This document shows positions 34,842 through 63,036 of a stretch of 64,000 bases of DNA, one piece after another. The notes beneath the pieces are model-generated. The model saw only the letters and a program-made list of their open reading frames with translations. It had not been told where the DNA came from and made no database searches. Position 1 is the stretch's first letter. Each line of letters begins with the position of its first letter. This stretch comes from Opitutaceae bacterium (GTDB lineage: Bacteria; Verrucomicrobiota; Verrucomicrobiia; Opitutales; Opitutaceae), in the NCBI GenBank assembly GCA_003151495.1, contig PLXR01000023.1, forward strand, positions 1 through 64,000. The letters are read 5' to 3'. A program made the translations under genes and the position numbers.

Positions 34842-34890
34842 TTTTACAAATGGCGGGATGGACGGGACTCGAACCCGCGACCTTCTGCGT
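34842..34890. repeat. attL: left attachment site (49-bp tRNA-Asp 3'-end repeat)
   Basis: These 49 bp are identical to 62988-63036, which covers the 3' 40 bases of the intact tRNA-Asp gene and 9 bp beyond it. Sequences diverge immediately on both sides. The tRNA 5' part is missing here, so this is the displaced 3' end left by site-specific integration. It marks the left end of an element of about 28.1 kb. Confidence 0.93.
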
Positions 34891-42298: not shown

Positions 42299-42515
42299 AC
42301 TGCACGATCCGTTACGACCGCGGGTGGCAGGGAGCCGAAGGTGACCAGACAAGCGCGTTAGGATCGTAGGTCGCTACCGGGCGAGTTGCAGGAGTCGGCC
42401 ATCGCGAGGCGTTCAAGTAGGACCATGATTCATTCCGGTAAATCTGGGTCAACGCATAACCGGGGACATGTCCCCGCTTCTTGAGCGACGTATGCGATAG
42501 TCTCTGGGCCTCTTT

Positions 42516-44556: not shown

Positions 44557-45342
44557 TCAGATTTTTCGAGTACGCTTTCGCTGTCCCATCTTGATAAGCT
44601 TATTAATAAACTTTGCCTCGAGACTCCGCGCATCTTTCCCGAAATGAGCCCGACGATGATCGCCGGGGCAAAGTGCGATCACGTTGCCGACAGTATCCTT
44701 ACCCTCGTCGCAAAGCGCGATCACATGATGCGCCTCTAAGTACGCACTTCCGCTAGAGGTTTCGAAGCCAATTGAGCCGCAATGTTCGCATGCTCCTTTC
44801 GCCCGTTTGAGAACGTAAGCCCGGACCCGACTGTCCCTCCTAATAAATGTCGCCATTCGTTTTGCGCGGTCGGCTATCCCATTGCCAGAAGGGGCTTCAC
44901 CCAGATCGTCGACTGCGCTTTTTCTATTTCCTCGGTAAGCACCAGTTTTGACCAGTTCCAATGCAAGCACCCTACCCTTATGGCGTCCGCAGATTTGGCC
45001 GCGCTTCTTAAAGAGTTTGAGCTTCACGAGCGCCTGACTGTCGATTGATTCGATCGTGCGAGGACTAGTCCGAATGTCTTTGGCGACACATTGAAGGCCG
45101 AAGACGGCAATCTTTCGCCTGAAGGCCAATTCAAGAATCTTCTTTTGCTCGATCGCTCCGTGTCTCTTTTTTCCGGGACGCTCCGTCGGAGTCAGTTTCG
45201 ATATCCCCGAGCGAATCTGATCTTTCCAAATGGTGAAGATCGCACGGGTCTGGTCGTGGGACATGGCACACCAAGACCACCTCGGGTTCTTCACCCGGCA
45301 TCCCAGCATCTCAAACAGCTCATTGCGCCCAAGCTTCTTCAT
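44557..45342 (-). CDS. HNH endonuclease
   Basis: A 261-residue protein. The C-terminal HNH domain is clear: GACEHCG zinc-type pair, then YLEAHHVIALCDEGKDTVGNVIALCPGDHRRAHFG, which includes the catalytic HH, the central Asn and the final CxxxHRRxH part. The N-terminal 150 residues are basic and probably bind DNA. Its start overlaps the DUF3883 stop by 4 bp, so both are translated together. It could cleave incoming DNA as part of the restriction run. Confidence 0.85.
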   Translation of the reverse strand: MKKLGRNELFEMLGCRVKNPRWSWCAMSHDQTRAIFTIWKDQIRSGISKLTPTERPGKKRHGAIEQKKILELAFRRKIAVFGLQCVAKDIRTSPRTIESIDSQALVKLKLFKKRGQICGRHKGRVLALELVKTGAYRGNRKSAVDDLGEAPSGNGIADRAKRMATFIRRDSRVRAYVLKRAKGACEHCGSIGFETSSGSAYLEAHHVIALCDEGKDTVGNVIALCPGDHRRAHFGKDARSLEAKFINKLIKMGQRKRTRKI

Positions 45343-46166
45343 ACTCCAACTGGTATCTCCGCATTCTTCCAGCGGCCCTTTTCATTGTCGCTTGGAACAT
45401 GAGGGGCGATCTGCGCCGCTGTCCGCTCGAACAATCGAGCTGGCTCGACGGCCATATCCCAGACGTGGAAATGGTATGCGGCCCCTACCTTTAAAGCTTG
45501 GTCCCATTCGTGCCGGGTAAGCTGGAATCGAAGCGGGGAGGATATGGTGCTTTTAACCTCTATCAGCCTCGCCGTGGGCAGGACGGCCCCAGGGTCGTAC
45601 GAGTGAATATCGTATCCAGCTTGGTTGTCTTCGATGGCGGTCCAACGCGGTGTGAGAGTTATCCCGAGTTTCTTCAATCGCCTCTCCTCATGTTGATAGC
45701 TTAGGTGCTCTGCCTTGCGGGCACGAATTAGGCGCTCCTGATCGTTGAAAAGGCGAACCTGGCCGGTCACGCGGTCCCACCATCCAATGACGGCCCAATC
45801 AGGATTTTCATCCAAGAGGCCGGCGCTTCGAAAACATTGCTGCTCGTCACGTGAAAGTTTTTGGGCAAATTTCTGGCGCCCGTAAGTCATCATCTTTGCC
45901 CACGTCGGCTGTTGGGTGAGGACGATTGTTTCGATGCACTTTTGGTAGAACCCGAGTCCCTCTTGCGTGGCATCGCAATGCTCCGTCAGGCCATGGAGTT
46001 CGAAGGCCGCTTCAAAATCGAGTCCTGCCGAATCCGCATCCACCCGAGCGACCAATCCAGCAACTTGTTGAATGGTTAAGCCAGGGGACAGTCGCTGCTG
46101 GATCCGCAAGACGCGGAGAGCTTCAAATGCCCCCATGCTGAAGATGCGCGGGAATTCGACATTCAC
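45339..46166 (-). CDS. DUF3883 domain protein (putative restriction nuclease-like)
   Basis: A 275-residue protein starting at GTG 46166, which overlaps the helicase stop. The C-terminal 110 residues have the DUF3883 pattern (GYDIHSYD, then ARLIEVKST, then FQLTRHEWDQALKVGAAYHFHVW), in which the GYDI Asp and EVK Glu/Lys match a PD-(D/E)xK nuclease core. The N-terminal half is helical without known family. DUF3883 domains are found in restriction and helicase-linked defence proteins. Its overlaps on both sides tie it to the SNF2 helicase and the HNH nuclease. Confidence 0.78.
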   Translation of the reverse strand: MNVEFPRIFSMGAFEALRVLRIQQRLSPGLTIQQVAGLVARVDADSAGLDFEAAFELHGLTEHCDATQEGLGFYQKCIETIVLTQQPTWAKMMTYGRQKFAQKLSRDEQQCFRSAGLLDENPDWAVIGWWDRVTGQVRLFNDQERLIRARKAEHLSYQHEERRLKKLGITLTPRWTAIEDNQAGYDIHSYDPGAVLPTARLIEVKSTISSPLRFQLTRHEWDQALKVGAAYHFHVWDMAVEPARLFERTAAQIAPHVPSDNEKGRWKNAEIPVGV

Positions 46167-48061
46167 GCTTCTTCCTCTGTATCGGCTTCCTTTCGCCCCT
46201 CCAGTTCAGCAACAAGATCTACTAGATCCTGCAACTCGACATCGTAGTCCACCGGATCGTCGGCATTTTCCTCATCGAGCGCTATTTGATGGAGATCGGG
46301 ATCATCTAGTAGTTGCTGCAAATTCCGAAGCTTTGTCGCCAGTCGGCGACTGACCGAAAGGTCGATGCTTCCGACCCCGACCGGCGCTTTCGTCTGATAG
46401 ATGTGGATGTTTGTCTCGACGTCATCCGGGAGTCCGAGTCGATGAATGCGGTCGATCGACTGCAAATAGTGGGTGGTGACATAGCTGCGATCGAGGTAGA
46501 TCGCGTCGTGGCACACCGTGTGCAGGCTGATCCCCTCCCCCGCAGCGGCCGGATTCGCGATCAGGATCCTGCACGCGGGATCGGTGTGAAATCTCCGAAG
46601 GCGCCACTCGCGGGTCAGTGGATCGCTTTCCTCGCCGGCTGGGATCGCCCCAAAAATGGAGACCGGGTTGAGATCTGCCAACATCCGCTCCAGCTCGAAT
46701 ATCGTGTCGGTAAATATCGTCCAGATGACCGTCTTTTTACCCTCAATGGATAAACGACGAGCGTGCTCGGCGACGGCCTGCATCTTCGTCGATGGGCCTT
46801 CGCCCAGGACCTCATCGACTATACCTGAATTTAGTCCAACAAAATCACCCGCGATTGCCCGGAGCGCTAGAACTGGATTCGCCGAAAGCTGGAGGAGGCG
46901 CATCACAGATCGCCGTGCTCCGAGGTAATCTCCGCCGCTTGGGCCTCCTTTAATGGCCACAGTGAGCTGACGCAGTGTCTCATCTCTCACAACACCATAA
47001 AGGGCCATCTGCCCAGGCGCCATTTTCACTTGGTAGAATAGCCTTTTTACAGGCGGGAGACCCAGTTCGTGCTTCGTAGTGCGGACATAACGTCTGCCGA
47101 GGACGTCCCTCGGCGCCTGGCCACGCTGGATTTGCAAATCGAGTCCTAGTCCCGGCCACAAGAAGCCCAGTTGGGATGCAATATCCTCTGAGGATTGGGG
47201 CATTGGGGTCCCTGTAAGAATGTCGCGACGGACCGGCAGGCTGGCGATACTTAGAAGGAAGGCCCCTCTCTGGGAGCCGATACCCGCTTTCATCCGATGT
47301 GCCTCGTCCAATACCAAATGCACAGGCGTCCGCGCAAAATAGGCTGAGAGAAGGCCCTGCTGCCGCACCATCAGGTCATAAGTCATCAGAAATCGCGTAG
47401 CGCCGGACCGAAGCAACCGATCGACCTCCTCAGGCGAACCATCAAGCACGGTGAATGGCTCGTTGTCGCCGTCGGCCATGCAGTCAGTTGCAATCTCTCT
47501 CCACGCGGGAAACGCCGTCTTCGGAGCAACCACAAAGAAATGCTGCCCTTTCGCACGAACCAACAGATGAAGGGCAAAGGTGACGGTTGTTTTTCCGGAA
47601 CCCGGGACTGAAAAATTTGCACCATGCGGCAAAGACAAGAGGCGTTCGAGATCGCGCAGTTGAAATGGCTTGAGCGCTCTCTGTGTGAATCCCTTCGCAG
47701 CAAGGTCCGAAACGATCTCCTCCCTTGACCTCCTTAAAGTCAGTGTATCGCGAGCGCCTCGGGCGAGCCGCATCTCTTCACCGAACTGCCTGATTTTCGC
47801 TGCCGCCTCGCCCTTGGGGGCAAAGCGAAAGCCCAGGGATTCCTGCGCCTGCCGTGTTCCATATTCGCGAAGTATCCCGAGGATTTCCGGCCAGGGCATC
47901 TCGATTACCGTGTCCGAGACATTTACCTGGCCAATGGTAGATACGGCCCTCGCCTTGAAACGATCCCAAGCGGAAGAAGGCGCAGTAACATCGCCTCGCT
48001 CCAAGCGGCCTGAAAGGCGCACCGGGTCATAAGAAATAGAGATCGCGAGCGGGGCCGTCAT
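46163..48061 (-). CDS. SNF2-family helicase
   Basis: A 632-residue DNA translocase. The Walker A motif is in ANFSVPGSGKTTV (near residue 155), the DEAH box in LVLDEAHRMK (near residue 257), and motif III in ILTGTPMPQS. The helicase C-terminal part shows KTVIWTIFTD, RILIANPAAAGEGISLHTVCHDAIYLDRSY and QSIDRIHRLG. There is an acidic tail (about 30 residues). SNF2 proteins without other domains often accompany restriction or defence genes. It is translationally coupled to the DUF3883 protein downstream and lies 20 bp after the ParB-like gene. Confidence 0.9.
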   Translation of the reverse strand: MTAPLAISISYDPVRLSGRLERGDVTAPSSAWDRFKARAVSTIGQVNVSDTVIEMPWPEILGILREYGTRQAQESLGFRFAPKGEAAAKIRQFGEEMRLARGARDTLTLRRSREEIVSDLAAKGFTQRALKPFQLRDLERLLSLPHGANFSVPGSGKTTVTFALHLLVRAKGQHFFVVAPKTAFPAWREIATDCMADGDNEPFTVLDGSPEEVDRLLRSGATRFLMTYDLMVRQQGLLSAYFARTPVHLVLDEAHRMKAGIGSQRGAFLLSIASLPVRRDILTGTPMPQSSEDIASQLGFLWPGLGLDLQIQRGQAPRDVLGRRYVRTTKHELGLPPVKRLFYQVKMAPGQMALYGVVRDETLRQLTVAIKGGPSGGDYLGARRSVMRLLQLSANPVLALRAIAGDFVGLNSGIVDEVLGEGPSTKMQAVAEHARRLSIEGKKTVIWTIFTDTIFELERMLADLNPVSIFGAIPAGEESDPLTREWRLRRFHTDPACRILIANPAAAGEGISLHTVCHDAIYLDRSYVTTHYLQSIDRIHRLGLPDDVETNIHIYQTKAPVGVGSIDLSVSRRLATKLRNLQQLLDDPDLHQIALDEENADDPVDYDVELQDLVDLVAELEGRKEADTEEEA

Positions 48062-48081
48062 CGAGAATAGGCCGCAGCGAT

Positions 48082-49437
48082 CTACGATGGGGTCTTCGCG
48101 ACGGTTGCCTGCTTATACTTGGCTAGCTTCTCTCGAAGTTCCCCAGCTTTCTTGATGATGGCCTCAAGCTGACGGTCTATGGTGGCGTGTGTCGCCGGGA
48201 GCGCCTTCGAGATATCTACCTCCGCTAACTTGGTGTGGGCTGCGATGACTGCCTTTTCCGCGGCCGATCCTGATTTCTTGTCGCGCTCGGATTCCAAGAC
48301 TCCTCGGCAGACCTCGATGAGCGTCTCCGTGGCCTCCTCTCGACGAGCAGGGTCGCGCAAGGTCTCCAAAACGCTCTCATAGGATGTACCCTCTTCGTCC
48401 TCGTCGAGATCCACGTCGAATTCACCCTGCGCTGGTGCCTCTGCACTCCCGTCGGCACCAGGCGCCGACGGAGCAGCCTTATCAAGAGGCACGCCCAGAT
48501 CACTCGCCAGACGATCTAGTACGTCTGCTGCGCGCCGGCCGAAGGTGAGGTTGAATGCATAGAGACGATCATCCAGCTTCTTGCGATTGTCGTAGAGCGA
48601 CCAAGCTATCGTTCGACTAGCCTCTTGAAGGTCCCGGTCCTTTCCCTCAAGCAACGCAGGAAGGTCCGAGAAGAACTGTTCACCGTCGTCGCGAACCCGG
48701 GAATATTCCCCCTCGGCTTTCGCCCATTCCTTGAGGTAAAGGTCGGCCTCCGTCAGAGCTAAGAGAGAATTCCGAATGTCCTTCTCCTTCCTATCGAGGC
48801 GATCCGCCACTTCGGTCGGGGTCCGTCCCATGGAGATCAGTTTGGTTATCAGACGGCACTCCCCGACCCAATCATACTCCAACTTCGTTTCCCGTTTCGC
48901 CTGAAGGGACGCCTCAATATCCATTATCTCTTCGGGCGTCGCATCAGAAGGCAAAACCATGCAGTCGACGTGAGAGAAGTGCGCTCGTGAAACGGGATCC
49001 TCGACGAAAAGCTCCCGCATGCCGGCGAGGCGCCTGTTTCCATTCACGACGACACCAGTATAGGAAATAAGGAGCTGCTCACGCTGCCCCTCCTTTTTCA
49101 AAACGTCGACGACGGGCGTGACCGAATCAGCCCGTCCGGTCCCGGCCAATTTTGCCAGGATATCGTGCTGAAGTTGCTGGACGCTCTCGTTCTCCTGTCC
49201 TGACAGAAAAAAATCAGTCGGTTTCCCCTCTCGCACGACAAACTCCTTCTGGTCCGTATAGGTGCGGCAGTTCTCTACGCGATATATGGGAAGGCCAATG
49301 TCGATCCGAACCACCTTAAGCTTTGTCTTTTGGTTTCTGAAATAATAGAAATCTTCCTCTCCCTTGGGCGCCAAAAGGGCCGCCCGAATCTTGGCCTCTC
49401 GCTCAAGGCGACTGACGAGCTTCACTTGGTATGGCAT
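48082..49437 (-). CDS. ParB/Srx-fold protein in a restriction-helicase cluster
   Basis: A 451-residue protein. The region near residues 60-150 follows the ParB N-terminal pattern, ending VVVNGNRRLAGMRELF (the NGNRR box in place of DGxRR). A helical DNA-binding-like part (ITKLISMGRTPTEVADRLDRKEKDIRNSL) lies near residues 220-250. The C-terminal half is charged and partly coiled-coil. ParB-fold proteins can bind CTP or ATP and some are nucleases. Here the gene is between the restriction endonuclease (12-bp gap) and the SNF2 helicase (20-bp gap), not next to a ParA, which argues against partitioning. Confidence 0.78.
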   Translation of the reverse strand: MPYQVKLVSRLEREAKIRAALLAPKGEEDFYYFRNQKTKLKVVRIDIGLPIYRVENCRTYTDQKEFVVREGKPTDFFLSGQENESVQQLQHDILAKLAGTGRADSVTPVVDVLKKEGQREQLLISYTGVVVNGNRRLAGMRELFVEDPVSRAHFSHVDCMVLPSDATPEEIMDIEASLQAKRETKLEYDWVGECRLITKLISMGRTPTEVADRLDRKEKDIRNSLLALTEADLYLKEWAKAEGEYSRVRDDGEQFFSDLPALLEGKDRDLQEASRTIAWSLYDNRKKLDDRLYAFNLTFGRRAADVLDRLASDLGVPLDKAAPSAPGADGSAEAPAQGEFDVDLDEDEEGTSYESVLETLRDPARREEATETLIEVCRGVLESERDKKSGSAAEKAVIAAHTKLAEVDISKALPATHATIDRQLEAIIKKAGELREKLAKYKQATVAKTPS

Positions 49438-49449
49438 GATGTTGTACTC

Positions 49450-49911
49450 TTAGTTGAATGCGACCACTAGTATCGGGACCGTGATGATCCGATTGAACAC
49501 TTCTAGCTCGCTGCATAGGCGCTCGGCATGAGCCACATTGCTGGAAATCTTGTCGGCACATTCCTTGGTCGGTAGCGCCAATGCAGCAGCTTGGATACGA
49601 TTGGCCTGATACAAATGCTGAAGCTTAAGAAGATCGTATGGCGCCCTGCTCATGTTCCCGGTCTGCAACTGGAAGGCCAAGTCATCATGAAGAGCAAAGA
49701 CGGTAAGCCCTAGCCCTTGCTCGATTTTCACGTTTGTTGCCCATCCCGCCGTTTGAAACTCGCCCAACACATGGCGGCGTATCTCTGGCGTACACCGAAG
49801 CCGCATCTCGACCTCTGGAGCTTCAAAAACGTCTGTCAGCCAGTCCTGCAACTCCCGGCGTTTCCACTCCGCGCATGCATTGTGGTGGTCGTACGTATAG
49901 GCAAGTTTCAT
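49450..49911 (-). CDS. type II restriction endonuclease (BglII/BstYI-like)
   Basis: A 153-residue protein. The segment VFALHDDLAFQLQTGNMSRAPYDLLKLQHLYQ followed by AAALALPTKECADK matches the BglII/BstYI-like restriction endonuclease group, in which the FQLQTGN strand is part of the active site. The length is shorter than most members (about 200 residues), so it may be a compact form. Its start overlaps the methyltransferase stop (ATGA), which is the expected coupling of a type II pair. The recognition sequence cannot be read from the protein. Confidence 0.72.
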   Translation of the reverse strand: MKLAYTYDHHNACAEWKRRELQDWLTDVFEAPEVEMRLRCTPEIRRHVLGEFQTAGWATNVKIEQGLGLTVFALHDDLAFQLQTGNMSRAPYDLLKLQHLYQANRIQAAALALPTKECADKISSNVAHAERLCSELEVFNRIITVPILVVAFN

Positions 49912-50795
49912 TCCGAAATCAGGTCACCCGGTTGATACACAGGCTTATTCATCGGACGTGTCCTGAGGCGCCCGGACCGGAACGCTTCAATACGGTCGCG
50001 AGCGATCTTAATGTACTCGGGAAACAGGTCACAGCCGTATGCATTTCGGTCGTTCATCAAAGCGGCGACCGCCGTCGAGCCGGACCCTAGATAGGGATCT
50101 AAGACGTTTTCTCCCTTCGATGTCAGAGCAAGTATCAACCGCTCGACCAAGCCCACCGGGAACTGGCATGGGTGGCTGGTCTTTTCCACGTGGTTAGCTT
50201 TAACGTTCGGAATATCCCAAACATCCGAGGGATTCTTTCCAAGAGGATTGCTCGAAATCTTCCCATGCTTCGGCCCCTTAAAGTACTTTTTGCCTGGATA
50301 TTTTGAAGGCACTCTTACGGGATCCAAATTGAAGGTATAATCCTCGGTCTTGGTGAACCAAAGAATGGTTTCGTGCCTTCCCGAAAAGCGTTTCTGACAA
50401 TGTAAGCCATGTCCGTAGGTCCAAACTATTCGGTTCCTAAGTTGCAGTCCATGCACCCGAAAGAGCGGATACAGTGCGATGTCCAACGGATAGATTTCGC
50501 CGTCCTGGACGTAGTTGCCGACCTGCCAGCATATGGAACCGTGCGGGTGGAGCACCCTGACTGCTTCGGCGATAGCCGCCGCCTGCTGCTCCAGGTACGA
50601 TTCAAGCGAGCTGCGCTGTTCGTAGGCCTTCCCAACGTTATAAGGCGGAGACGTCACGATGAGATGGATCGACTCCCCTTGGAGTCCTCTCATAAAAGTC
50701 AGGTTGTCAGCGCACTCGATATTTACCGTCGGCTGCTTTTTGAAATGCAAGACGTTCGAGGGGTGCTCCAGGCGTCTGGCGGCCGATTCGCGCAT
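49908..50795 (-). CDS. type II DNA methyltransferase, beta class
   Basis: A 295-residue methyltransferase. Motif IV TSPPYN (HLIVTSPPYNVG) precedes motif I (NVLDPYLGSGSTAVAAL), the order of beta-class amino-methyltransferases; TSPPY is most typical of N4-cytosine or N6-adenine enzymes. A target-recognition region lies between (KYFKGPKHGKISSNPLGKNPSDVWDIPNV). It is the first gene of the minus-strand run and overlaps the restriction endonuclease by 4 bp. It would protect host DNA from that enzyme. Confidence 0.88.
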   Translation of the reverse strand: MRESAARRLEHPSNVLHFKKQPTVNIECADNLTFMRGLQGESIHLIVTSPPYNVGKAYEQRSSLESYLEQQAAAIAEAVRVLHPHGSICWQVGNYVQDGEIYPLDIALYPLFRVHGLQLRNRIVWTYGHGLHCQKRFSGRHETILWFTKTEDYTFNLDPVRVPSKYPGKKYFKGPKHGKISSNPLGKNPSDVWDIPNVKANHVEKTSHPCQFPVGLVERLILALTSKGENVLDPYLGSGSTAVAALMNDRNAYGCDLFPEYIKIARDRIEAFRSGRLRTRPMNKPVYQPGDLISE

Positions 50796-50873
50796 GGGTA
50801 TTTGTCTGGTGAAGGGTGGCTTATTTCAACCTTAAGCGTCCGTCGGAGGCAGAAATTGGGAATACTAGAGAAC

Positions 50874-51242
50874 CTATGTGGCCTTGGGCGACGGTGCGGC
50901 CATGGCACCCCTCCGTCTCCGGCGATGCAGGCCCTCCCGAGGTTCATCAGCTACGTCGTTCTCCGCGTCACTCGGTAACTTCCTTTCGCGATAGACTGGC
51001 CCGAATTTCAACACATTAGCCTGTTGCTGTGCCTGGAAATCGCGCTTGCGTTCCAAGTCAGCTTTAAACGCGTCGGGCCGGGCAAAAACCAGTTGCGCCG
51101 ACCCCTTAAGACGGTCCCGCCAATTTATGAGCGCCCGTCGCGAAGTCCCAGCCTTCCGGGCTAGTTGCACGGCAGAGATCTTTCCCGAGTGCAGTTCCAA
51201 AACGAGTCTCATCTTCGTTTCAGGCGAGAAGTGTTTTTTCAT
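50874..51242 (-). CDS. transposase OrfA-like helix-turn-helix protein
   Basis: From the ATG at 51242 the product is 122 residues. The first 60 (MKKHFSPETKMRLVLELHSG, then ISAVQLARKAGTSRRALINWRDRLKGSAQLVF) match the helix-turn-helix region of IS3/IS911-type OrfA transposase subunits. There is no OrfB with a DDE domain and no terminal inverted repeats nearby, so it is either an isolated remnant or a domesticated DNA-binding protein. The C-terminus (GLHRRRRRGAMAAPSPKAT) is basic. The frame is open upstream to 51365 but that part lacks similarity. It is divergent from the hairpin-rich region. Confidence 0.6.
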   Translation of the reverse strand: MKKHFSPETKMRLVLELHSGKISAVQLARKAGTSRRALINWRDRLKGSAQLVFARPDAFKADLERKRDFQAQQQANVLKFGPVYRERKLPSDAENDVADEPREGLHRRRRRGAMAAPSPKAT

Positions 51243-51314
51243 AAAAAAAGCGGTTTTCGAAAGAATTTCCCTTGTCACTGCTATTTTGGGCTCTTCGATA
51301 ATGTGCACACCTAT

Positions 51315-51332
51315 TCGCTCGTTTACGAGCGA
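51315..51332. promoter_or_regulatory. inverted repeat upstream of the OrfA-like gene
   Basis: TCGCTCG-TTTA-CGAGCGA is a perfect 7-bp inverted repeat, 73 bp from the ATG at 51242. It could be an operator for the helix-turn-helix protein or a small hairpin. No T-run follows on either strand, so a terminator is unlikely. Confidence 0.4.
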
Positions 51333-51386
51333 GATTAACGTTTTACTGTAAACATTCGATTGCACGAAGGCGCAGGCAGTTTAGCC

Positions 51387-52290
51387 AGGGGGTCGGTACG
51401 ATGTGATAGGCCCCCTTTAGGTGGTCATAGCGAGAACGGAGACCACCTTAGCGGCGATCCGAGGAACTGAATTCCAAACCGGTCTCACCTTGGCGGTAAG
51501 AAAGGTGTCCGTACGGCAGCGCGACCCGGGAGATGGAGAATCAACGTGGGCGTCAAAAGCCGGAAATCCATCGGGCAAAATACTTCAATGTTCTGAAGAA
51601 AATTTTGTGACGGTGACCGCTTTGTCACCATCAGAAGATTTATGATCGGTCCATATACAGAATTTCAAAATGCGGTTGGCAGGGGATTCGTCCCGAGCCT
51701 TGCGGGACTTGGTCGATCGGGGTCAGCCCCTGGTGCCGATATGTTGTCGGAGCATTTGGGAGGAAGGCGGCAAGTAGACGGCAGCCGTGCATGCCGACGC
51801 CAAGGGAGCCTTGATGATAATCGGGCGCGGCTGGTCTGTCCACGGCCACTGGGGGCCTCAGCCAGGGCCCGGGCGGCCCTACGGCGGCGCCGGATGGCGC
51901 CGAGCGGGCTAACTTCGATAGGGCCGCGAAAAGGCGTCCGGAACGGACGTCCGGGGCCCCATTTTGGGGTCTTTTCCGAGAAGGAAAAGATGTCGACACC
52001 AGAGGGAGTTATCCCATCGGTAGCGACGAAGAAAGAGCCCCTAGGGGGCGTGGTCCTGCAACGAGTCATTTTTGACTCGGGGCAGGACCCTTTCTGGCAT
52101 AGTGCTGCCCCGAATATTTCGAAGGGCGCACACGGTTGGAGCGTGGCACCTTCGGATGCCACGGCTAGGAAGGCCATTTGGGCCTGCCTAGTGATCGTAA
52201 AGGTCGGCGATCACGCCGCCGTGTTTCGTGCGAGTCGTGACGAGTCCGTAGCGCCCAGATGGGCGCATACGGGTCGGCGATGCCGATCCC
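51387..52290 (+). ncRNA. candidate large structured RNA (hairpin array), orientation inferred
   Basis: About 900 bp without a convincing coding frame hold around eighteen successive hairpins. Examples: 51419-51448 (8 bp), 51612-51629 (6 bp), 51864-51880 (6 bp), 51886-51901 (6 bp with GGAT loop), 51933-51951 (7 bp), 51955-51971, 51971-51989 (7 bp), 52052-52089 (8 bp outer stem and 6 bp inner stem with TTTT loop), 52143-52162 (with a UUCG-type loop), 52165-52191 (5 + 5 bp), 52191-52214 (7 bp), 52251-52266 (6 bp) and 52271-52290. Several stems abut with no spacer. The array ends 23 bp before an ATG with a strong GGGGGAGG binding site, so it is either the leader of that gene or a separate RNA upstream. 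No known RNA class was recognised. A role as ssDNA origin is an alternative. Confidence 0.55.
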
Positions 52291-52312
52291 TGGGCACTGG
52301 GGGAGGCAACCG

Positions 52313-53797
52313 ATGAAGCGCGTTAAAAGATCATCGAAACGTGCGAAGATTCACGGGGATGTTGGCAAACCGAAGGCGAAGGCGGTCGAATCCACACCGC
52401 GCCTGTTGGCCGACTATTGGAAGCATCAACAACAACAAAGAGTGTGGCGCATGGCGCGGAGCGCTCCGGCAAAAGCTCGGCGGGCGATCGAGATCAAATG
52501 CTCTGCTGCCGATGAGGCGGAGGAGCGTGCCTTGGGGCCGGAATTAGGACTGGTACTGAAACCAATGCCAACCAGGGCAGGAGGATGGGAGGAGGCCGAC
52601 GAAGGCTGGCTGTCGACGATGCTCGAAGAGATCGAGATTCGCCGAACACATTATTGGAGGAAGCATGGCAAGGGCTTCAAAGCCGAGGAAACACCTTGGG
52701 TGTGGGCGGAGTTCGACGTCCAGATTGCTCCGCATAGGTCGAAAGGGCTATTCGTCGCCCAGGCGAAAGGTGAAGGAGTACTAGCCCGGGTGTTTTTACA
52801 ACGGGCCTGCCGCTTTGCTGTGTCGCTGGCGGAATTTGAAACTGGCGGAATGGCGGTCGAAGCTTCCTACATTCACCCCAAACCGTGGGCGAGCCATGTG
52901 CAGCTCGTCGTGTCGGGCTTTACCGACCCAGTACCCCGCCCGGACGGAAAGACGGTTCGAGCCGGGGCCAGGACCATGGCATGTTTGAAGGTGGGAGGAC
53001 TGGGCTTGTCCGCGAACCGACTCTTTTCCTTCTTGGGGAAGTCCTTACTGGGCGCGAGAGCCCAGGCAAAAATGGGGTTCGATCTAGCCCGATTGACCGG
53101 CATCAAAGATCCAGTCGCCGGGATCGAACAAGCCATTTCGAGGAAGTCAGCGAAAGCGGGTCCTCTCGACCAACGTTTCCGCGACAAACTCGATGACTGG
53201 GTCGAAGCCGAGCTAAAGAAACCGGAGTTCCACCCTCTGTCGCCTCACATGGATGAGGGAGAAGCCCTCTATCGCGCCCGTATTGACGAGCAACTGGCCT
53301 ACATCGCAAAAGAAGAGGAGAACGACGAGCTTCGAGCCAGGGTAGCGAACTTGGAACGTCAATTGAGGGCACGTAGCTATGCTATCTTGGCGGCTCCAGG
53401 AAAAAACCAGGCTATTACGCCGGCAGAGTGGACGGAAGAGATGATGATCGACTGCCTATACGAGGCAGCAGAAGCCCTGCTCAGTGGAGATTCCGATCTA
53501 ACGTCGTTACAGCCGTGGAAACGCGAGATCGTGGAAATCAAGCCGGCAATGAGACAAAAAAGGAACTCGGCGGGACTTCTCGTTAAAGGACCGTCTGGCG
53601 CGCCCGAGATGGAGACGAATCCTTTTGCCGGTATGATCGGGCTCACGGTCGTAGCGTATTGGGAAGCCAAGCGGCGCAACTTCGATCAAGCCATCCTCGT
53701 GGGGGGAATGCTAACCAGAGGAGAAGGACTTTCTGACTTACCGCTGATTCCATTCCCGGCCGGCCAGCCGGCCTCGGTATCGGCAACTACCCGTTGA
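52313..53797 (+). CDS. 494-residue protein of unknown function downstream of hairpin array
   Basis: The ATG at 52313 is preceded by GGGGGAGG at an ideal distance; an upstream ATG at 52259 would begin inside the hairpin array. The N-terminal 40 residues are very basic (MKRVKRSSKRAKIHGDVGKPKAK), suitable for nucleic-acid binding. A central region (PWVWAEFDVQIAPHRSKGLFVAQAKGEGVLARVF, then HPKPWASHVQLVVSGFTDPVPRPDG) alternates strands, and residues near 340-375 form a coiled coil (EENDELRARVANLERQLRAR). No family was recognised. It could be a replication, mobilisation or RNA-binding protein, but no active-site motif was seen. The next gene starts 2 bp after its stop. Confidence 0.7.
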   Translation: MKRVKRSSKRAKIHGDVGKPKAKAVESTPRLLADYWKHQQQQRVWRMARSAPAKARRAIEIKCSAADEAEERALGPELGLVLKPMPTRAGGWEEADEGWLSTMLEEIEIRRTHYWRKHGKGFKAEETPWVWAEFDVQIAPHRSKGLFVAQAKGEGVLARVFLQRACRFAVSLAEFETGGMAVEASYIHPKPWASHVQLVVSGFTDPVPRPDGKTVRAGARTMACLKVGGLGLSANRLFSFLGKSLLGARAQAKMGFDLARLTGIKDPVAGIEQAISRKSAKAGPLDQRFRDKLDDWVEAELKKPEFHPLSPHMDEGEALYRARIDEQLAYIAKEEENDELRARVANLERQLRARSYAILAAPGKNQAITPAEWTEEMMIDCLYEAAEALLSGDSDLTSLQPWKREIVEIKPAMRQKRNSAGLLVKGPSGAPEMETNPFAGMIGLTVVAYWEAKRRNFDQAILVGGMLTRGEGLSDLPLIPFPAGQPASVSATTR

Positions 53798-53799
53798 AA

Positions 53800-54441
53800 A
53801 TGAACACATCATCTTCTGACAAAAGTGTAAAACGACCGACGGGCTCTTGTGACCGAAGGTCAAATAGCCCTACAGAGATTATGGAAACATCAAACGTCTC
53901 GAATTCAGCAAAATCATTATATCATGGACTAGTGAAACGGATATCACGCCAGGAGCGATGCTCTATGGGTGTCGCTCGCGGACTAATGGCATTCGAGCGT
54001 AGTAAGCTATACCAGCTCACCGACCCAGACATCGAGAGCCTAGCCGAACGTGAATGGGGATTTCGACGGAAGGATACTCGCGACTTCATTAATGCAGCCG
54101 AGGGAATTGAAAAACTGATCGAAACCGCGAAATCCATTCCGCAGACAGCGAAGGGCCAGTTCGGCTACCTGCGTCTATTGAAGGACTGGGACAACTTCTC
54201 AGCAATCTGGTCCCTCTTGAGTTTTGACGCATTCCTCCGTCCGCAGATTGCATTTCTTGCCTGCCAGACCTGTGTTCACGGATTTCCGACACGAGCCCAT
54301 GTCGAGCGCGCAGCATCAGAAATAGCTATTCTAAACCCAAGGCCGCCTAAGGCTGCCGTAGCAAAGGCAGATGATATAGTAGCGAAGGTTCGAGCAGGCC
54401 AAAGACTTGGCCCTCCGTACTCGTACCTTCGAGGACCTTAG
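53800..54441 (+). CDS. hypothetical protein coupled to the 494-residue protein
   Basis: A 213-residue protein from the ATG at 53800, 2 bp after the preceding stop. The first 30 residues are Ser/Asn-rich; another ATG at 53881 would remove them. The rest is largely helical (KSLYHGLVKRISRQERCSMGVARGLMAFERSKLYQL, then KDTRDFINAAEGIEKLIETAK). Two cysteines (ACQTC) lie near residue 160. No family was recognised. Close spacing suggests it works with the upstream protein. Confidence 0.6.
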   Translation: MNTSSSDKSVKRPTGSCDRRSNSPTEIMETSNVSNSAKSLYHGLVKRISRQERCSMGVARGLMAFERSKLYQLTDPDIESLAEREWGFRRKDTRDFINAAEGIEKLIETAKSIPQTAKGQFGYLRLLKDWDNFSAIWSLLSFDAFLRPQIAFLACQTCVHGFPTRAHVERAASEIAILNPRPPKAAVAKADDIVAKVRAGQRLGPPYSYLRGP

Positions 54442-54537
54442 GCATGACACCTTCTCCACATGTATAGTTGGACGAAGAGGCCAATCCGGAGGCACAAAGC
54501 CGTCCCAAATAGACATGGATCAGCATAGGAGATCCAA

Positions 54538-54876
54538 TTGCCCACCGCTATAAGAGGCATTCCGAAACGGTATCCCGCCGTAACCACACCCGTTGCGAAC
54601 AAAGCATCACGGGAATGGCAGGATGCTCTCTGGAAACGATGGCCAACAAAAGCAGATTGGCCCGGCACTCTTGATGTCTACGAAGGGGCAGCCTATCGCC
54701 GCGTGAGCCCAGATACCGTGAGACGGGCATTGATCGTTGGGCGCGACAGGAGGGCCCTTTTGCGACATCAACGCGTAGGGAACCTCTATCGAATTGATAA
54801 GGATGATCTGGAGCGCTTCGGCCAAGTAGAAAGCAGGCACCCGGCTGCTGAGGTTGGGCGAGCCCCTTCCAGCTAA
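54538..54876 (+). CDS. excisionase/AlpA-like helix-turn-helix protein
   Basis: A 112-residue protein with a TTG start at 54538. The start is supported by AGGAG six bases upstream (54527-54531) and the absence of any other start codon nearby. The part YEGAAYRRVSPDTVRRALIVGRDRRALLRHQRVGNLYRIDKDDLERFG follows the excisionase/MerR-like winged helix that binds DNA at attachment sites or promoters. On an island with a tyrosine recombinase it is the best candidate for a recombination directionality factor, though it lies 7 kb from the recombinase gene. Confidence 0.65.
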   Translation: MPTAIRGIPKRYPAVTTPVANKASREWQDALWKRWPTKADWPGTLDVYEGAAYRRVSPDTVRRALIVGRDRRALLRHQRVGNLYRIDKDDLERFGQVESRHPAAEVGRAPSS

Positions 54877-57441: not shown

Positions 57442-58758
57442 ATGCTGCTGAACTCGGTGACGGTGGGTAACTACCGATCATTTGTCGAAAAAACTAAGTT
57501 TGAGCTGCGTCCACTAACATTGGTTTTTGGACAGAATGGAGCTGGCAAGAGCGCTTTAATTCGGGCTCTTCCCCTGCTCGCAGCCTCGATGGACGGACGT
57601 CCAGGCCAACCTCTCGCACTGGATTCTGCTGCGAATCGAGGCGCTCGCTTCCAAGATATTCTCGCGGCAAGACCCATCAGAAAAGATGCCATTCTTAGGC
57701 TCGAACTTCAACTTGGTGGCGCAAACGCCGACAAGCCACCGCTCTCAGTCCAATGGGACTTACGCGAGATACCTGAAAGAAAGCAGGTTTTCGTGGATCG
57801 CATTTATGCGGTTCAATCGGATTTGCACTTTGAAGCTAGGATGGCGGTCCTTGATGATATCAAGAAACTAGGGCGTTATTATGATGTTACTTTAGGAAAT
57901 GAAGTTTTTGCCGGAATCGAAATGGGGTTCGACGGTTTATTACCGAATGTGCAAGAATTTTTGAGCGGAAAATGGGGCGCTTCTCCAAGCGCCTCCGTGC
58001 TGTTTCGAATCCTTCAGCTCCGGCAGCTCGCCTACGAAACGCAGTGGCTTACCTCGGTGCGCCTTCCCCCTCCCCGTTTTAGCCTTTATAAAGGCTTTTC
58101 GCCGCTACGTTTATCATTCGATGGAAGTGCAGCGGCAGACGCGCTTGCTTACGATGAGTTGGTCGGAGGAGATGTCTTGCCGTTGGTATCGTCATGGTTT
58201 GAGAAAAACACTAAGCAGACCCTTCAAATACAAAAGGCCAACGACTACTTCAGCCTGGTCCTCGGCAAAGTGACTGACAGCCCATTTGTCGTTAATTTTG
58301 CCGACGCTGGCGAGGGCCTGATCCAAGTATTACCGGTGTTGGTCGCCTGTACGATGGCTGCAATTAAAGCGACCGATGCCAGTACTTCTGTCGTCGCTGT
58401 TGAGGAACCGGAATGTCATCTGCACCCGAACCTTCATGCACCTTTAGCGGAACATTTGTGCATGTTAATTCGCAGGAACAGCAACGTGCGTTATGTTGTT
58501 GAAACTCATTCGGAGATTCTCCTGCTGGCTACCCAAATCGCGATTGCACGAGGTGATATTGATCCATCCCAGGTAATCGTCTATTGGGCGCGGCAATCGG
58601 CTGACGGGCGAAGCTATCTTGATCCCATAACATTCGATCTCACTGGAAAGCCGCACGGAGATTGGCCGCGAAGTGTATTCAAAGAGGACGTTGCCAAGGC
58701 GAAAGTGCTTTTCGAGCTGCAACATAAAGAGTGGCGCAATGCGAGTAGTCATACTTGA
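57442..58758 (+). CDS. AAA ATPase of the DUF3696/OLD-like group
   Basis: A 438-residue ABC-type ATPase. Residues 1-45 read NSVTVGNYRSFVEKTKFEL, LTLVFGQNGAGKSAL (Walker A). The C-terminal half has Walker B and signature parts (VVAVEEPECHLHPNLHAPLAEHL, then NVRYVVETHSEILLLATQ). This arrangement is shared with DUF3696 and OLD-like ATPases used in defence systems such as Gabija, PARIS and Septu. The downstream gene overlaps it by 20 bp and encodes a TOPRIM-like protein, the usual partner type. It is the first gene of a three-gene operon. Confidence 0.85.
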   Translation: MLLNSVTVGNYRSFVEKTKFELRPLTLVFGQNGAGKSALIRALPLLAASMDGRPGQPLALDSAANRGARFQDILAARPIRKDAILRLELQLGGANADKPPLSVQWDLREIPERKQVFVDRIYAVQSDLHFEARMAVLDDIKKLGRYYDVTLGNEVFAGIEMGFDGLLPNVQEFLSGKWGASPSASVLFRILQLRQLAYETQWLTSVRLPPPRFSLYKGFSPLRLSFDGSAAADALAYDELVGGDVLPLVSSWFEKNTKQTLQIQKANDYFSLVLGKVTDSPFVVNFADAGEGLIQVLPVLVACTMAAIKATDASTSVVAVEEPECHLHPNLHAPLAEHLCMLIRRNSNVRYVVETHSEILLLATQIAIARGDIDPSQVIVYWARQSADGRSYLDPITFDLTGKPHGDWPRSVFKEDVAKAKVLFELQHKEWRNASSHT

Positions 58759-59734
58759 CGCTGTTTTTCGAGATCCGGGAAACGATTTGGCGCTAATTCA
58801 GATCTTTCTGAGTGGATACGACCTGCGCCATGACGTCGTGGTTGCGCCACCTGAAAGCGTAATTTTTGACGAATGGTTGTCCGAAAAAACAACTGGCCCC
58901 ATACGCGCAGCAATTACCCTTGCGATAGAGGCTGGCTTTCAGAGTCACGCTTCGACTCCCTCAGATGTGTGTGTATACGTGAGAGTCGAACCGAACGATG
59001 AGTACGCAGGTTTGAACGCGCATTTGTCGGCTACCGCTGCCTGTGCGCTGCTACAACAACCATTCCGTATCCTGGTCGAGAACGACAACGCCGACATGAA
59101 CTTCTTCAGGGCCTTTTTGCCCGTCAGCATTCGCCAAAGGTTTGAACAGTTCTTGGCTAACCATTGGATTGAGTTCCAGCACTGCGGCGGTATTACCTCT
59201 CTTACAGAAAGGGTCCGTGCAAACAGAACCAACCACGCATGGAGAATTAGGGCCTTTGCTCTGTTTGACAGCGATGGACTAATACCAGGGCAGATAAGCG
59301 CCAATGCATCGGCGGCTAGATCACAATGCGAAGGGTTTGTAGCGTTTCACATGTTAACGGCGCGAGCCATTGAGAACTATTTGAACGACATTGCCCTCGA
59401 TAGTTGGACTCGAACTGGATCTGCCTCTGATCGACCGAGGAATAAGGCGAGATTTCGTGCCTTTAGGAGGTTTGACCGCGGACAGAGGTCACACTTCAAT
59501 ATGAAGCGGGGATTCGACGGGGACGTTGATCATGATCAGTTAGCGACGGTTGGTAATTTTTATGCCTCCGTTACGCCGGTCGACCACACCACGTTGCAAC
59601 ACGGTTTTGGGAGGGATATCGCTGCCATGTACGACACGGATTTGTTTCCGGAGCTTAGAAATCAATGCTTCGATTTGGCCATAGACGCCCCTGAACTCTC
59701 TCCGGCATACAGTCTCTTGATGAATCTCATTTGA
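58739..59734 (+). CDS. TOPRIM/DUF4435-like effector candidate
   Basis: A 331-residue protein from the ATG at 58739, overlapping the ATPase gene. A TOPRIM-like order is visible: the Glu in FRILVENDNADMNFF (residues about 115-130), then an Asp-x-Asp in IRAFALFDSDGLIPG, then HMLTARAIENYLND, which resembles the IENYL motif of DUF4435 proteins. DUF4435 proteins with an ATPase partner form the PARIS defence system, in which the TOPRIM protein is a nuclease. The assignment rests on short motifs and is moderate. Its last base overlaps the next start. Confidence 0.6.
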   Translation: MRVVILDAVFRDPGNDLALIQIFLSGYDLRHDVVVAPPESVIFDEWLSEKTTGPIRAAITLAIEAGFQSHASTPSDVCVYVRVEPNDEYAGLNAHLSATAACALLQQPFRILVENDNADMNFFRAFLPVSIRQRFEQFLANHWIEFQHCGGITSLTERVRANRTNHAWRIRAFALFDSDGLIPGQISANASAARSQCEGFVAFHMLTARAIENYLNDIALDSWTRTGSASDRPRNKARFRAFRRFDRGQRSHFNMKRGFDGDVDHDQLATVGNFYASVTPVDHTTLQHGFGRDIAAMYDTDLFPELRNQCFDLAIDAPELSPAYSLLMNLI

Positions 59735-61338
59735 TGAATACGACCCCCACTTTTCTGTCCGAGCCGCAAGTTCAATATCTATACCAACTTCTCGAGTTAC
59801 TTCAAAAGGGAGGTTTACTAATTCCTAGATTCCAAAGGGGCTACACTTGGTCGATCGACCAACGGCTCGACCTATTGCGAAGCGTCCGAAGCGGAATTCC
59901 AATCGGAAGTATTCTTGTCTGGCGAACGACTGTGGATGTTCCTGCATTCGACACGGTAGGAGGTCACGAAGTAAGACAACCTGTCGTTCAAGGGTCGCCT
60001 AGACAATACTTGCTCGACGGCCACCAAAGGCTATCGACGTTACTCGGCGCCCTGTTTCCTGGCGAACCTAGATCGTTGCCAACACCAGAAAGCGAGTATT
60101 TTGCTGTAAGCCCAGAGTGGGCATTTTTCTATGATTTAGAGACCGACGACTTCACTGTATCCGGTAGCCAATTTCCAGATCGCAAGACGTTGATTCCAAC
60201 ACAGGCCTTATTGGACAGCATCTCGCTAATTAAGCTTCAGCGAAAATTATCTGATGAGACAAACTCGGAGGAACTTATCAGTCGCGCTGATCGAGTCGCC
60301 AATGCTTTTAGGAGCTACAAGATTCCTGTCATACCAATCACCACGGATAATGTGGATGATGCCACAATGGCGTTTCAACGAATTAACAGTAGTGGTACGC
60401 CGATGGCGGACATTGATATGGTTGCCGCGCTTACTTGGACTTCTAGCTTTGATCTCAAAGACGAGGTTGAAGCGGTTAAGCAGGAACTTCGCCCCTTAGG
60501 ATGGGCTGCTTTTGATGATAAATATATTCTGGCGATTGTGCGCGCAGGCCTAGATCTAAAGATTCTCGATCCGGACGCGGAACAGACAAGTCGGAGAGTT
60601 CGGTCACATCCGACACTCATTAGGGAAGCTGGCAACTGCTTAAAATCAGCCATTAGTTTCCTGGACGAGTTTTGCAACGTTCCTTCGCCAGGCCTTCTCC
60701 CCTATAGCTATCAGGCTGTTATCATCGCATCAGCTCTGCGTGACCATTCCAAGCCGTCGAAGGTTCAGGTGGACGCATTGCGTAGATGGTTTTGGTGGAC
60801 CACTTATACCGCATTTTTCTTGGGGGCCAGTGATAACAAGGTTCGCGGCGCGTTGTCAGAAGTTAGAGAAATCCTGGAAGGAACGGAGGTTCTCTCCAAA
60901 AACGATGATATTGTTGGCCCATTACCGCTCAGATACGATTTCCGCTCAGCTAGATCAAAGGCCCTGCTAATTCTATTAGCCAAATTGAATACTGGTGGGC
61001 AGGTAGGTAAAATGCAGGGTGCAAAGCAATTATTCCGTGCATTTGAGTCAGAGGCCGTGGCAAGCCTTTGTATTAGCCGTGACCCGAAAAACAAGGAAGG
61101 CCTGAGCGGACCACAGAACAGGTTTATCGCTGCACCTGAGGAGCAAGAGGCATTTAGAATCGGTATGTTTCTGGGAGATCATACCCCCGAAGTGTTAGCG
61201 AGCCACGCCATTACACCTGAGGCCGCACAAGCTTATAGCGATTCTGATTATATCTCGTTTCTTCGGATTCGACGCTCATCGTTAACGGACATTGAGGAAT
61301 CCTTTGTCACGAGCATTGGAATGAAGTATTCAAGGTAA
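59734..61338 (+). CDS. DUF262 (GmrS-type) protein
   Basis: A 534-residue protein from the ATG at 59734 (TGATG overlap with the preceding stop). The DUF262 signature is strong: LLIPRFQRGYTWS near residue 30, QYLLDGHQRLSTLL near residue 90, and FQRINSSGTPM. The DGHQR box matches the ParB/Srx-like nucleotide-binding site of GmrSD-type restriction enzymes. There is no C-terminal HNH domain (DUF1524), so it is the S-type half without nuclease. Coupling to an ATPase and a TOPRIM-like protein suggests a three-part defence system. Confidence 0.82.
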   Translation: MNTTPTFLSEPQVQYLYQLLELLQKGGLLIPRFQRGYTWSIDQRLDLLRSVRSGIPIGSILVWRTTVDVPAFDTVGGHEVRQPVVQGSPRQYLLDGHQRLSTLLGALFPGEPRSLPTPESEYFAVSPEWAFFYDLETDDFTVSGSQFPDRKTLIPTQALLDSISLIKLQRKLSDETNSEELISRADRVANAFRSYKIPVIPITTDNVDDATMAFQRINSSGTPMADIDMVAALTWTSSFDLKDEVEAVKQELRPLGWAAFDDKYILAIVRAGLDLKILDPDAEQTSRRVRSHPTLIREAGNCLKSAISFLDEFCNVPSPGLLPYSYQAVIIASALRDHSKPSKVQVDALRRWFWWTTYTAFFLGASDNKVRGALSEVREILEGTEVLSKNDDIVGPLPLRYDFRSARSKALLILLAKLNTGGQVGKMQGAKQLFRAFESEAVASLCISRDPKNKEGLSGPQNRFIAAPEEQEAFRIGMFLGDHTPEVLASHAITPEAAQAYSDSDYISFLRIRRSSLTDIEESFVTSIGMKYSR

Positions 61339-61400: not shown

Positions 61401-61418
61401 GATTCAGATTTCTGAATC
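61401..61418. terminator. hairpin between convergent genes
   Basis: GATTCAG-ATTT-CTGAATC (61401-61418) is a perfect 7-bp inverted repeat in the 78-bp gap between the DUF262 gene and the convergent recombinase gene; its right end touches the recombinase stop codon. No T-run follows, so termination is only a possibility. Confidence 0.35.
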
Positions 61419-62829
61419 AAATTCTCTGAGTCTCATTTTGCGCAGATTTTCCAGCACTCCATAACTTCCTTTCAATTTGTATTCTGATGATTCCCTTTGG
61501 CTCAATCTGTGGAAGTATTGGCTTCGCAACAGGGACCGGAAGAATGTTGAAATAGGCCCTCCCCTCCTCCTCTGTGACACCGGTACCTCGATATGAATTG
61601 TGAAGCGTTTCAGCAGAACCTCTATGGCGAAGAATTAGCGCGGTTCTGTCGGCACTTTGATGCATCGCAATATGAAAGGTGCAAAACGTACGACGGCGGC
61701 CGTTCCAGGGCCATTGTTTCAAAGCCTTCTTAGCAGCGGGAAGCTTTAACAGCGTTTTAATCGGCAAGAGCGCGAGCTTGTCGGCCTGGGCTTGATCGTG
61801 AATCGAAGTTAGTACTCGAACTCGGTACCATCGTGGGTCGCAATTTGAGGGCCGAAGAAGCCCATTTCTTGGGCCATATGCAGCCCACCAGGACCAGAAC
61901 GATTTCTCTAGAGTATTTATCACTTCACGTTTTCCCGTCTTAGCGATAGCCGCCGGGATTTTAATCTCTTTGGTCTGAGGGAGCACAAACTCCGCCCGAA
62001 AATCGGCCATTTCGTCGTCAGCACGAACACCCGAGATCAGTTGCACGACTTCGTGTGCCACCATTTCAGGCGCATATCTTTCTAACGCCCTCAAATAGCG
62101 TTCAGTCTCAGTGAGCGACAAGAAGCCGATCTCCTTTGGCAACTCCTGCGGCAGCATTCGCTTCTTAATTCCCGTTAGCGGACTACTTGAAATTAACTGT
62201 TGGTCTCGAATCCAACCGAAAAAAATACTGAGTGAGTTCTTATGATTGCGGACCGTACGAGGCTCAAAATTTTCGAGTCCAAGAAGGTAATCGAGCACTT
62301 GCCTCTGGATGACTGTCTCTGGAAATCGCGACCCAAAGCCGGCTTCGAGAAATGCGCCGACCCGAGATTGGAGGTCACTCAGGTGTCGCGTGGTTTTCTC
62401 TTCCGCCCCCTCTTTGGTCAATATGCCCAGGAGCTTCTTAGATTCGTGGATATATCGCTCTAGGAGGGCCGCGCAGTTCTCTCCAGGAGTTTCGGGATGG
62501 TGCAGCCTCCAGAACCTCGCCAACTCACTAATTGGAACGCCCCCAGCGATCTTTAGCGCGGATTCGTACTCACCAGCCGCCTGCCGATCGAATAAGAATG
62601 TGCCTGCACCGGCCGTACTGTGTTGAGCAATGATTCTCGGCTTATCGGCTTCAGCCTTGGCCTTAGATTTGTAGTATGGGCGATACCTCTGGAGGACGGG
62701 CTTGCCATCACTCTTTAAGACCGCGGTACCATCGCCATTAGTCCTCGGAATCGAGTATCGCAGGTACCAGCAATTGGGCTGCCCACGGCGTTTCTTTCGC
62801 TTATCGGGGAAGGGACCAGTGATTTTCAT
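61417..62829 (-). CDS. int: tyrosine recombinase/integrase of the island
   Basis: A 470-residue phage-type integrase. The N-terminal part is an arm-binding-like basic region (KRKKRRGQPNCWYLRYS), followed by a SAM-like core-binding domain (about residues 130-230, ending VRNHKNSLSIFFGWIRDQQLI). The catalytic domain has the first Arg in LISGVRADDEM, a box II region RRRTFCTFHIAMH and the nucleophile Tyr in ETLHNSYRG. The His of the HxxR motif seems replaced, a variation seen in such integrases. Position next to tRNA-Asp and pointing away from it is the expected layout. Confidence 0.88.
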   Translation of the reverse strand: MKITGPFPDKRKKRRGQPNCWYLRYSIPRTNGDGTAVLKSDGKPVLQRYRPYYKSKAKAEADKPRIIAQHSTAGAGTFLFDRQAAGEYESALKIAGGVPISELARFWRLHHPETPGENCAALLERYIHESKKLLGILTKEGAEEKTTRHLSDLQSRVGAFLEAGFGSRFPETVIQRQVLDYLLGLENFEPRTVRNHKNSLSIFFGWIRDQQLISSSPLTGIKKRMLPQELPKEIGFLSLTETERYLRALERYAPEMVAHEVVQLISGVRADDEMADFRAEFVLPQTKEIKIPAAIAKTGKREVINTLEKSFWSWWAAYGPRNGLLRPSNCDPRWYRVRVLTSIHDQAQADKLALLPIKTLLKLPAAKKALKQWPWNGRRRTFCTFHIAMHQSADRTALILRHRGSAETLHNSYRGTGVTEEEGRAYFNILPVPVAKPILPQIEPKGIIRIQIERKLWSAGKSAQNETQRI

Positions 62830-62955: not shown

Positions 62956-62991
62956 TGAAAAAGCCCGCTTCCAGAGGGAGCGGGCTTTTTT
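62956..62991 (-). terminator. intrinsic terminator of tRNA-Asp
   Basis: GCCCGCT (62963-62969) and AGCGGGC (62979-62985) form a 7-bp stem with AAAAA on the left and TTTTTT on the right, so it works on both strands. On the minus strand it follows the tRNA-Asp gene by 11 bp. It lies on the island side of the attachment core, so the island supplies the tRNA terminator. Confidence 0.8.
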
Positions 62992-63036
62992 ACAAATGGC
63001 GGGATGGACGGGACTCGAACCCGCGACCTTCTGCGT
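62988..63036. repeat. attR: right attachment site (49 bp within tRNA-Asp)
   Basis: Identical to 34842-34890. It covers the 3' 40 bases of the intact tRNA (T-arm, variable loop and the 3' side of the anticodon stem) plus nine bases downstream. Because the island brings an identical 3' end, the tRNA is restored after integration. Confidence 0.93.

Follow-up and report, generated by a model that had tools for sequence, protein, structure and literature searches.

A dense hairpin array beside an orphan gene on a tRNA-Asp integrative island of an Opitutaceae bacterium: a candidate structured leader or non-coding RNA

The stretch of DNA analysed here (the window, 64,000 nucleotides) is one contig of a 4.1-Mb assembly with 165 contigs. 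Its protein content reads as that of an Opitutaceae-like verrucomicrobium. A perfect direct repeat of 49 bp, containing the 3' part of tRNA-Asp, is located at 34842-34890 and 62988-63036. Next to the tRNA lies the gene 61417-62829, read as integrase-like from its position and sequence. Thus, the repeat and the integrase-like gene mark a 28-kb integrative island. The cargo is largely defence-like, with a methyltransferase, a BglII-type nuclease, an SNF2 helicase, a NO VEIN-type domain, HNH nucleases, an AAA ATPase and a GmrSD-type protein. On the minus strand, the gene set 44557-50795 comprises an HNH nuclease, a NO VEIN-type domain protein, an SNF2 helicase, an unmatched protein of 451 residues, a BglII-like nuclease (E 2.7e-6) and an N6/N4 methyltransferase, and reads as a restriction-modification or undescribed defence system. 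On the plus strand (57442-61338) the AAA ATPase and the GmrSD-type protein match the PADLOC candidates PDC-M55A and PDC-M55C; the frame of 353 codons that separates them is unmatched. The translation of a 988-codon frame (39386-42352, minus strand) suggests a secreted protease that contains repeated beta domains. An excisionase-family DNA-binding match at 54538-54876 (plus strand) lies far from the integrase end of the island and scored below the family cut-off (22.4 vs 28.8 bits). Furthermore, a stretch of 31 bases at 30369-30399, 4.5 kb further left, matches the same tRNA-Asp end with 97%. Perhaps an older, adjoining insertion lies between this site and 34842, with the gene 33020-34252, read as HipA-like, inside.

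Where two divergent gene sets of the island meet, a non-coding gap of 947 bases (51366-52312) separates the leftward gene 50874-51365 from the rightward gene 52313-53797. The stretch described in the earlier note as back-to-back hairpins takes up nearly all of the gap, directly 5' of the rightward gene. This gene (plus strand) encodes an orphan protein of 494 residues with a basic N-terminus and has a good codon score of 0.143. A good ribosome-binding-site-like sequence, GGGGGAGG, is found at 52299-52306 on the plus strand, six bases 5' of the ATG at 52313; the same open frame has an earlier ATG at 52259. A second orphan frame of 215 residues (53794-54441, plus strand) overlaps the end of the gene and has a weak codon score of 0.058; no relative of it was detected in plasmids and viral contigs. 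The divergent gene (50874-51365, minus strand) encodes 163 residues with a transposase-type helix-turn-helix (PF01527, E 5.1e-6), and a search at E 1e-5 found no relative among 252 family genomes or in plasmids.

The coding capacity of the gap was assessed with a codon model built from eleven training genes on the island, which score 0.094-0.198 per codon. The longest plus frame (51642-52316, 224 codons) reached 0.026, and the two minus frames of 119 and 170 codons reached -0.013 and -0.064. The non-coding nature of the gap is supported by this model; the earlier note had seen no family features in any coding frame here. A protein-coding gene at 51642-52316 with incidental hairpins is hence highly improbable. 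The frame is open and overlaps the next gene by four bases, but it scores far below the training genes, is accompanied by the two open frames on the other strand and has no Pfam match.

Perfect hairpins in the gap were counted and compared with 300 dinucleotide shuffles. With stems of at least 6 bp and loops of 3-15 bases, 12 hairpins were present in the whole gap, whereas the shuffles had 2.7 on average and 8 at most, so that none of the 300 reached 12. The right half (51800-52312) had eight (shuffle mean 1.7, maximum 5) and the left half (51366-51799) four (mean 1.0), a number reached by 3 of the 300 shuffles. Stems of at least 5 bp with the same loops gave 19 hairpins in the whole gap (mean 8.6, maximum 16), stems of at least 7 bp gave six (mean 0.8, maximum 3), and stems of at least 6 bp with loops of 3-8 bases gave nine (mean 1.4, maximum 5). 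For the last setting, GC-rich stretches of 947 bases elsewhere in the window contained up to seven hairpins, compared with 9-10 in the gap.

Fold energies, compared with 30-40 shuffles, revealed a very strong secondary-structure potential. The z values (plus/minus strand) were -6.9/-7.3 for the whole 947 bases, -9.8/-11.8 for the right half and -1.6/-1.4 for the left half. Other seeds gave -10.0/-8.3 and -9.7/-9.5 for the right half, and DNA energies gave -9.9/-11.0. When 33001-63800 was scanned in 154 windows of 200 bases, 52001-52200 was lowest on both strands (z -8.0/-8.5), followed by 51801-52000 as second lowest on both strands (z -4.0/-3.8). A coarser scan of the plus strand (159 windows of 500 bases, 10 shuffles each) placed the array windows second, third and fifth with -5.6, -5.5 and -4.3; the window at 62801 with the tRNA pair was lower (-10.7) and the window at 57601 similar (-5.3). 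Hence, chance does not account for the hairpins, which cluster in the right half of the gap. The z values are equal on both strands, and the fold energy gives no indication of the strand.

The row of inverted repeats described in the earlier note is present, including the pairs sharing ends (52165-52191 with 52191-52214, and 51955-51971 with 51970-51990). The number given there, around eighteen, corresponds to a raw count of 19 for 5-bp stems, but nearly half of these are expected by chance. Of the proposed 900 bases, a core of about 500 (51800-52312) remains: the comparison with shuffled energies is clearly positive in the right half (z about -10), but the left part shows a few scattered hairpins and z about -1.5.

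These left-half hairpins (51387-51416, 51419-51448, 51486-51507, 51600-51641 and 51690-51708) have no assigned strand, and the overall energy of 51366-51799 is near background. This half is presumably the promoter region for both divergent gene sets; a scan for one promoter type detected no sigma-70-like site in good orientation within it. The core array (51800-52312, tentatively placed on the plus strand) is a candidate structured 5' leader or non-coding RNA. Its G+C content is 64%, compared with about 54% in the surroundings. Among its hairpins, given here without strand, are perfect ones at 51885-51902 (7-bp stem, 4-base loop), 51935-51949 (6-bp stem, 3-base loop; a G-T pair can extend the stem on the plus strand) and 51970-51990 (8-bp stem, 5-base loop). 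The last competes with the hairpin 51955-51971 for positions 51970-51971. A two-part hairpin at 52052-52089 consists of 8 bp, two opposed mismatches and 7 bp with a TTTT loop. It is followed by a perfect hairpin at 52142-52163 (7-bp stem), the plus-strand loop of which, as read from the sequence, is able to form a C(UUCG)G tetraloop, by two 5-bp stems around one mismatch at 52165-52191, by a perfect hairpin at 52191-52214 (7-bp stem, 10-base loop) and by a hairpin of 11 bp with one bulged A at 52246-52272 (core 52251-52266).

The stems and loops are mutually different, and no repeat family of 14 or more bases is common to several hairpins. The few short partial direct repeats (10-17 bases at 52121/52258, 52202/52272 and 51839/52287) are unequally spaced. 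Such repeats, together with the single occurrence of the array and the orphan genes on both sides, could be expected of a palindrome cluster without present function as a unit, left by small mobile or palindromic repeats or by a decayed element between cargo modules. This origin is unlikely: the hairpins differ from each other and form no repeat family, decay would leave broken stems, but those of the array are nearly perfect, and beyond short chance matches no related sequence was found in plasmids, phages and 57 relatives. Perfect short hairpins in a leader might also belong to a cluster of attenuators or terminators, merely insulating or regulating the downstream gene via transcription termination. 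For the region 50800-54600 only two terminator-like sites were counted, with 4.8 expected, and the hairpins far exceed the need of an attenuator, which makes this explanation very unlikely.

Known RNA families and related sequences were searched in several collections. The Rfam scan of the whole window at gathering thresholds returned two tRNAs only, and the single match of a permissive scan of 50900-54500 lay outside the gap and was attributed to chance; no known family was thus located in the gap. The earlier note had likewise recognised no signature of GOLLD, ROOL, OLE or HEARO. The array DNA matched the window itself and a stretch of 32 bases in one of 57 relatives' genomes. This match (genome G015) was rejected as chance, since the long open frame around it reads like an iron-sulphur subunit of hydrogenase type. 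One match of 40 bases at E 0.07 was obtained in plasmids and none in phages, and 51800-52312 had no match in E. coli genomes. With a one-sequence RNA model (52030-52218), the array itself and three matches (E 0.04-0.09) were detected in 252 genomes; the one of the three that was read (L043) was discarded, as it lies inside a long open frame taken for a NuoG-type gene. Searches of the own genome for OLE and HEARO gave no match, and the control genomes were equally silent, so this result is uninformative. None of the papers listed in the literature searches describes such a hairpin array in its title or abstract opening. In the searches made, the array is a single instance without comparators.

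Related integrases were identified in 10 other genomes of the 252 family genomes at E 1e-20 (48-61% identical, one fragment 32%). Eight loci in six of the ten genomes (G539, G456, G441 and G466 were left aside) were scanned on one strand in 829 windows, and the tRNA-Asp attachment sequence is present in the stretches of four of these six. No run of strong folding was found in these windows; 14 isolated ones had z below -3.5, no two of them adjacent. The lowest (z -7.0, L037) overlaps the tRNA-Asp attachment sequence. Two of the stretches (L034 and L037) end early at contig ends, and the absence of the array there says little. Judged by the scanned stretches of related islands, the array seems to be cargo peculiar to this island.

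The 494-residue protein was likewise compared with families and genomes. No Pfam match at E 0.1 was obtained, HNH, RuvC and reverse transcriptase domains of Pfam included, and no PHROGs or NCBIfam match of note. Patterns of eight residues hit 13 stretches in genome contigs and none in viral contigs, degenerate patterns 50 and 17, respectively, and no hit was confirmed. Plasmids and phages contained no match at E 0.01, and among 384 class and 387 phylum genomes (overlapping sets) the own genome alone was found at E 0.001. At E 0.1 the 252 family genomes yielded 12 places in 11 genomes besides the own (E 0.0016-0.09). With 12-18 bits over 42-112 residues, differing query parts and some alignments across stop codons, these were taken as chance and dropped with the loci unread. 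Single-sequence structure models had mean pLDDT values of 35.6 and 41.9, i.e. very low confidence; Foldseek with the second of these gave a best E of 0.21, and the result was set aside. The motif of relaxases is HxDxxxxHxH, and H188, H195 and Q197 of the protein match its spacing. An identity as HUH/MobV relaxase was nevertheless not supported: a profile of nine MobV pieces did not report the protein with hmmsearch --max without filters, and hhalign gave a probability of 0.1%, elsewhere in the protein and no better than shuffled controls.

For the question of RNA or DNA, eight pieces of E. coli 16S/23S rRNA, RNase P RNA and three distinct group II introns were run as RNA controls with the same script; identical control rows (L048/L051 and L047/L049) were counted once each. 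A piece of plasmid pMP118, meant to serve as ROOL control, was located by gene order only and had no Rfam match, and its row (7/49, z -0.3/+1.1) was excluded from the totals. The G+C content varies among the controls, and z of the rRNA pieces is lowered because they were excised from longer RNAs. With this reservation, z of the E. coli rRNA and RNase P controls ranged from -1.1 to -3.7 for the true strand and from +0.2 to -1.8 for the opposite strand, and 72 of their 574 confident pairs were G-U. Group II introns gave -1.9 to -3.3 on the true and -1.7 to -2.7 on the other strand, with 15 G-U pairs among 232. For the right half of the array, z was -9.7/-9.5 and only 3 of 92 confident pairs on the plus strand and 0 of 101 on the minus strand were G-U, compared with 87 of 806 in the controls together. 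Allowing G-U pairs helped the array less than its shuffles (z of the gain +2.9 and +1.9); the true-strand values were -1.7 to +0.1 for the nine E. coli pieces and -0.4 to +0.8 for the introns. The M13 intergenic region, a single-strand origin and packaging region, was the nearest control in strength (z -7.5/-3.3); it is strand-biased and has G-T pairs in 8 of 74 confident pairs (plus strand). Among 25 mismatch or stem-end positions of the array, six G-T and three A-C combinations show a slight lean to the plus strand, which is not significant. In general, the array is stronger and more purely Watson-Crick than the RNA controls, and it is strand-symmetric, as the introns partly are. In having so few G-U pairs and two equally stable strands, the array is unlike rRNA and RNase P RNA and in part unlike group II introns, which leaves room for a function at the DNA level.

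The main rival explanation is a hairpin array acting as DNA, such as a replication or transfer origin of the island, the hairpins of which would form in single-stranded DNA or be extruded from supercoiled DNA and be recognised by the orphan protein as initiator or relaxase. We keep this rather unlikely explanation because selection acting on hairpins at the DNA level might result in such pure Watson-Crick pairing and strand symmetry. The z values with DNA energies, the strength of M13 as the closest control, the location at the junction of divergent gene sets on an integrative island and the relaxase-like spacing of the three residues are consistent with it. However, M13 has G-T pairs and a strand bias, which the array lacks, and no such array was found in tRNA-Asp island stretches from six genomes. 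The protein, for its part, has neither detectable MobV homology nor a Pfam, PHROGs or NCBIfam match of note, and its structure models are unusable.

Tentatively, we prefer a structured 5' leader or a separate non-coding RNA on the plus strand, belonging to the orphan genes from 52313 on. Three points favour it: the array extends up to the ribosome-binding site of the well-coded 52313 gene, the gene order would place it in the rightward transcript, and plus is the strand to which the slight signal leans. The z of about -10 in the right half, hairpin counts above all 300 shuffles, the non-coding gap and the possible UUCG tetraloop on the plus strand agree with it. The same applies to the high G+C content of the array; discovery pipelines for non-coding RNAs are described as targeting long G+C-rich intergenic regions (PMC8723152). 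The wobble bias, including three G-U pairs on plus against none on minus, points in the same direction and is too small for significance. Against this preference stand the missing Rfam match and homologue, the equal z on both strands, G-U pairs scarcer than in the RNA controls (3/92 vs 87/806) and the lack of a plus promoter-like site in the left half for the one promoter type scanned. Transcription would start on the plus strand from a promoter in the less structured half 51366-51799 and run into the orphan genes from 52313. The 494-residue product of the adjacent gene might bind the hairpins or assemble with them into a particle, and the outcome could be control of this gene or an RNA-protein device carried as island cargo. 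Of the new large structured RNA proposed in the earlier note, a strongly structured non-coding region directly before an orphan gene and without Rfam family is present. As an RNA it is a candidate only: no homologue turned up in the searches made, the fold energy is strand-symmetric, and G-U pairs are scarce compared with rRNA and RNase P RNA. The alternative offered there, an unusually long leader for the gene at 52313, is the single likeliest reading.

A two-part island device, in which about a dozen distinct near-perfect hairpins within about 500 bases are bound as RNA or single-stranded DNA by the adjacent orphan protein, is conceivable, although we regard it as doubtful. The folding signal is real, and the array, which may work as RNA or as single-stranded DNA, is a singleton in the searches made. 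As RNA, it would be a large structured molecule accompanied by its own protein and invisible to comparative discovery, as no homologue is detected; this would raise the question of how many such singletons are missed. As DNA, it would amount to an unfamiliar type of hairpin array, similar to an origin and carried by a tRNA-Asp island. Furthermore, G-U scarcity and strand symmetry suggest a test to discriminate RNA from DNA for other candidates, for which better controls are needed than the few used here.

The tests run place the array outside GOLLD, ROOL, OLE, HEARO and the group II introns. GOLLD, ROOL and OLE are presented as ornate large RNAs (PMC12286853). Like them, the array is a non-coding stretch with dense structure over several hundred bases, and it shares the location on mobile DNA with GOLLD and ROOL; it differs in having no Rfam match, a single instance, a protein gene right after it and stems almost free of G-U pairs. 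With HEARO or omega RNA and their IscB-type nuclease it shares the arrangement of a structured RNA candidate directly 5' of a gene of about 500 residues, but it has no Rfam match and the adjacent 494-residue protein no HNH or RuvC match. Group II introns likewise comprise several hundred bases of structure on mobile DNA. In contrast, the array has no intron_gpII or reverse transcriptase match, and its z of about -10 lies well below the -1.9 to -3.3 of the introns. The M13 intergenic region differs by its strand bias and its G-T pairs, and the partner protein of the array is without detected initiator homology; with dense local hairpins across about 500 bases, M13 is nevertheless the nearest control in fold z.
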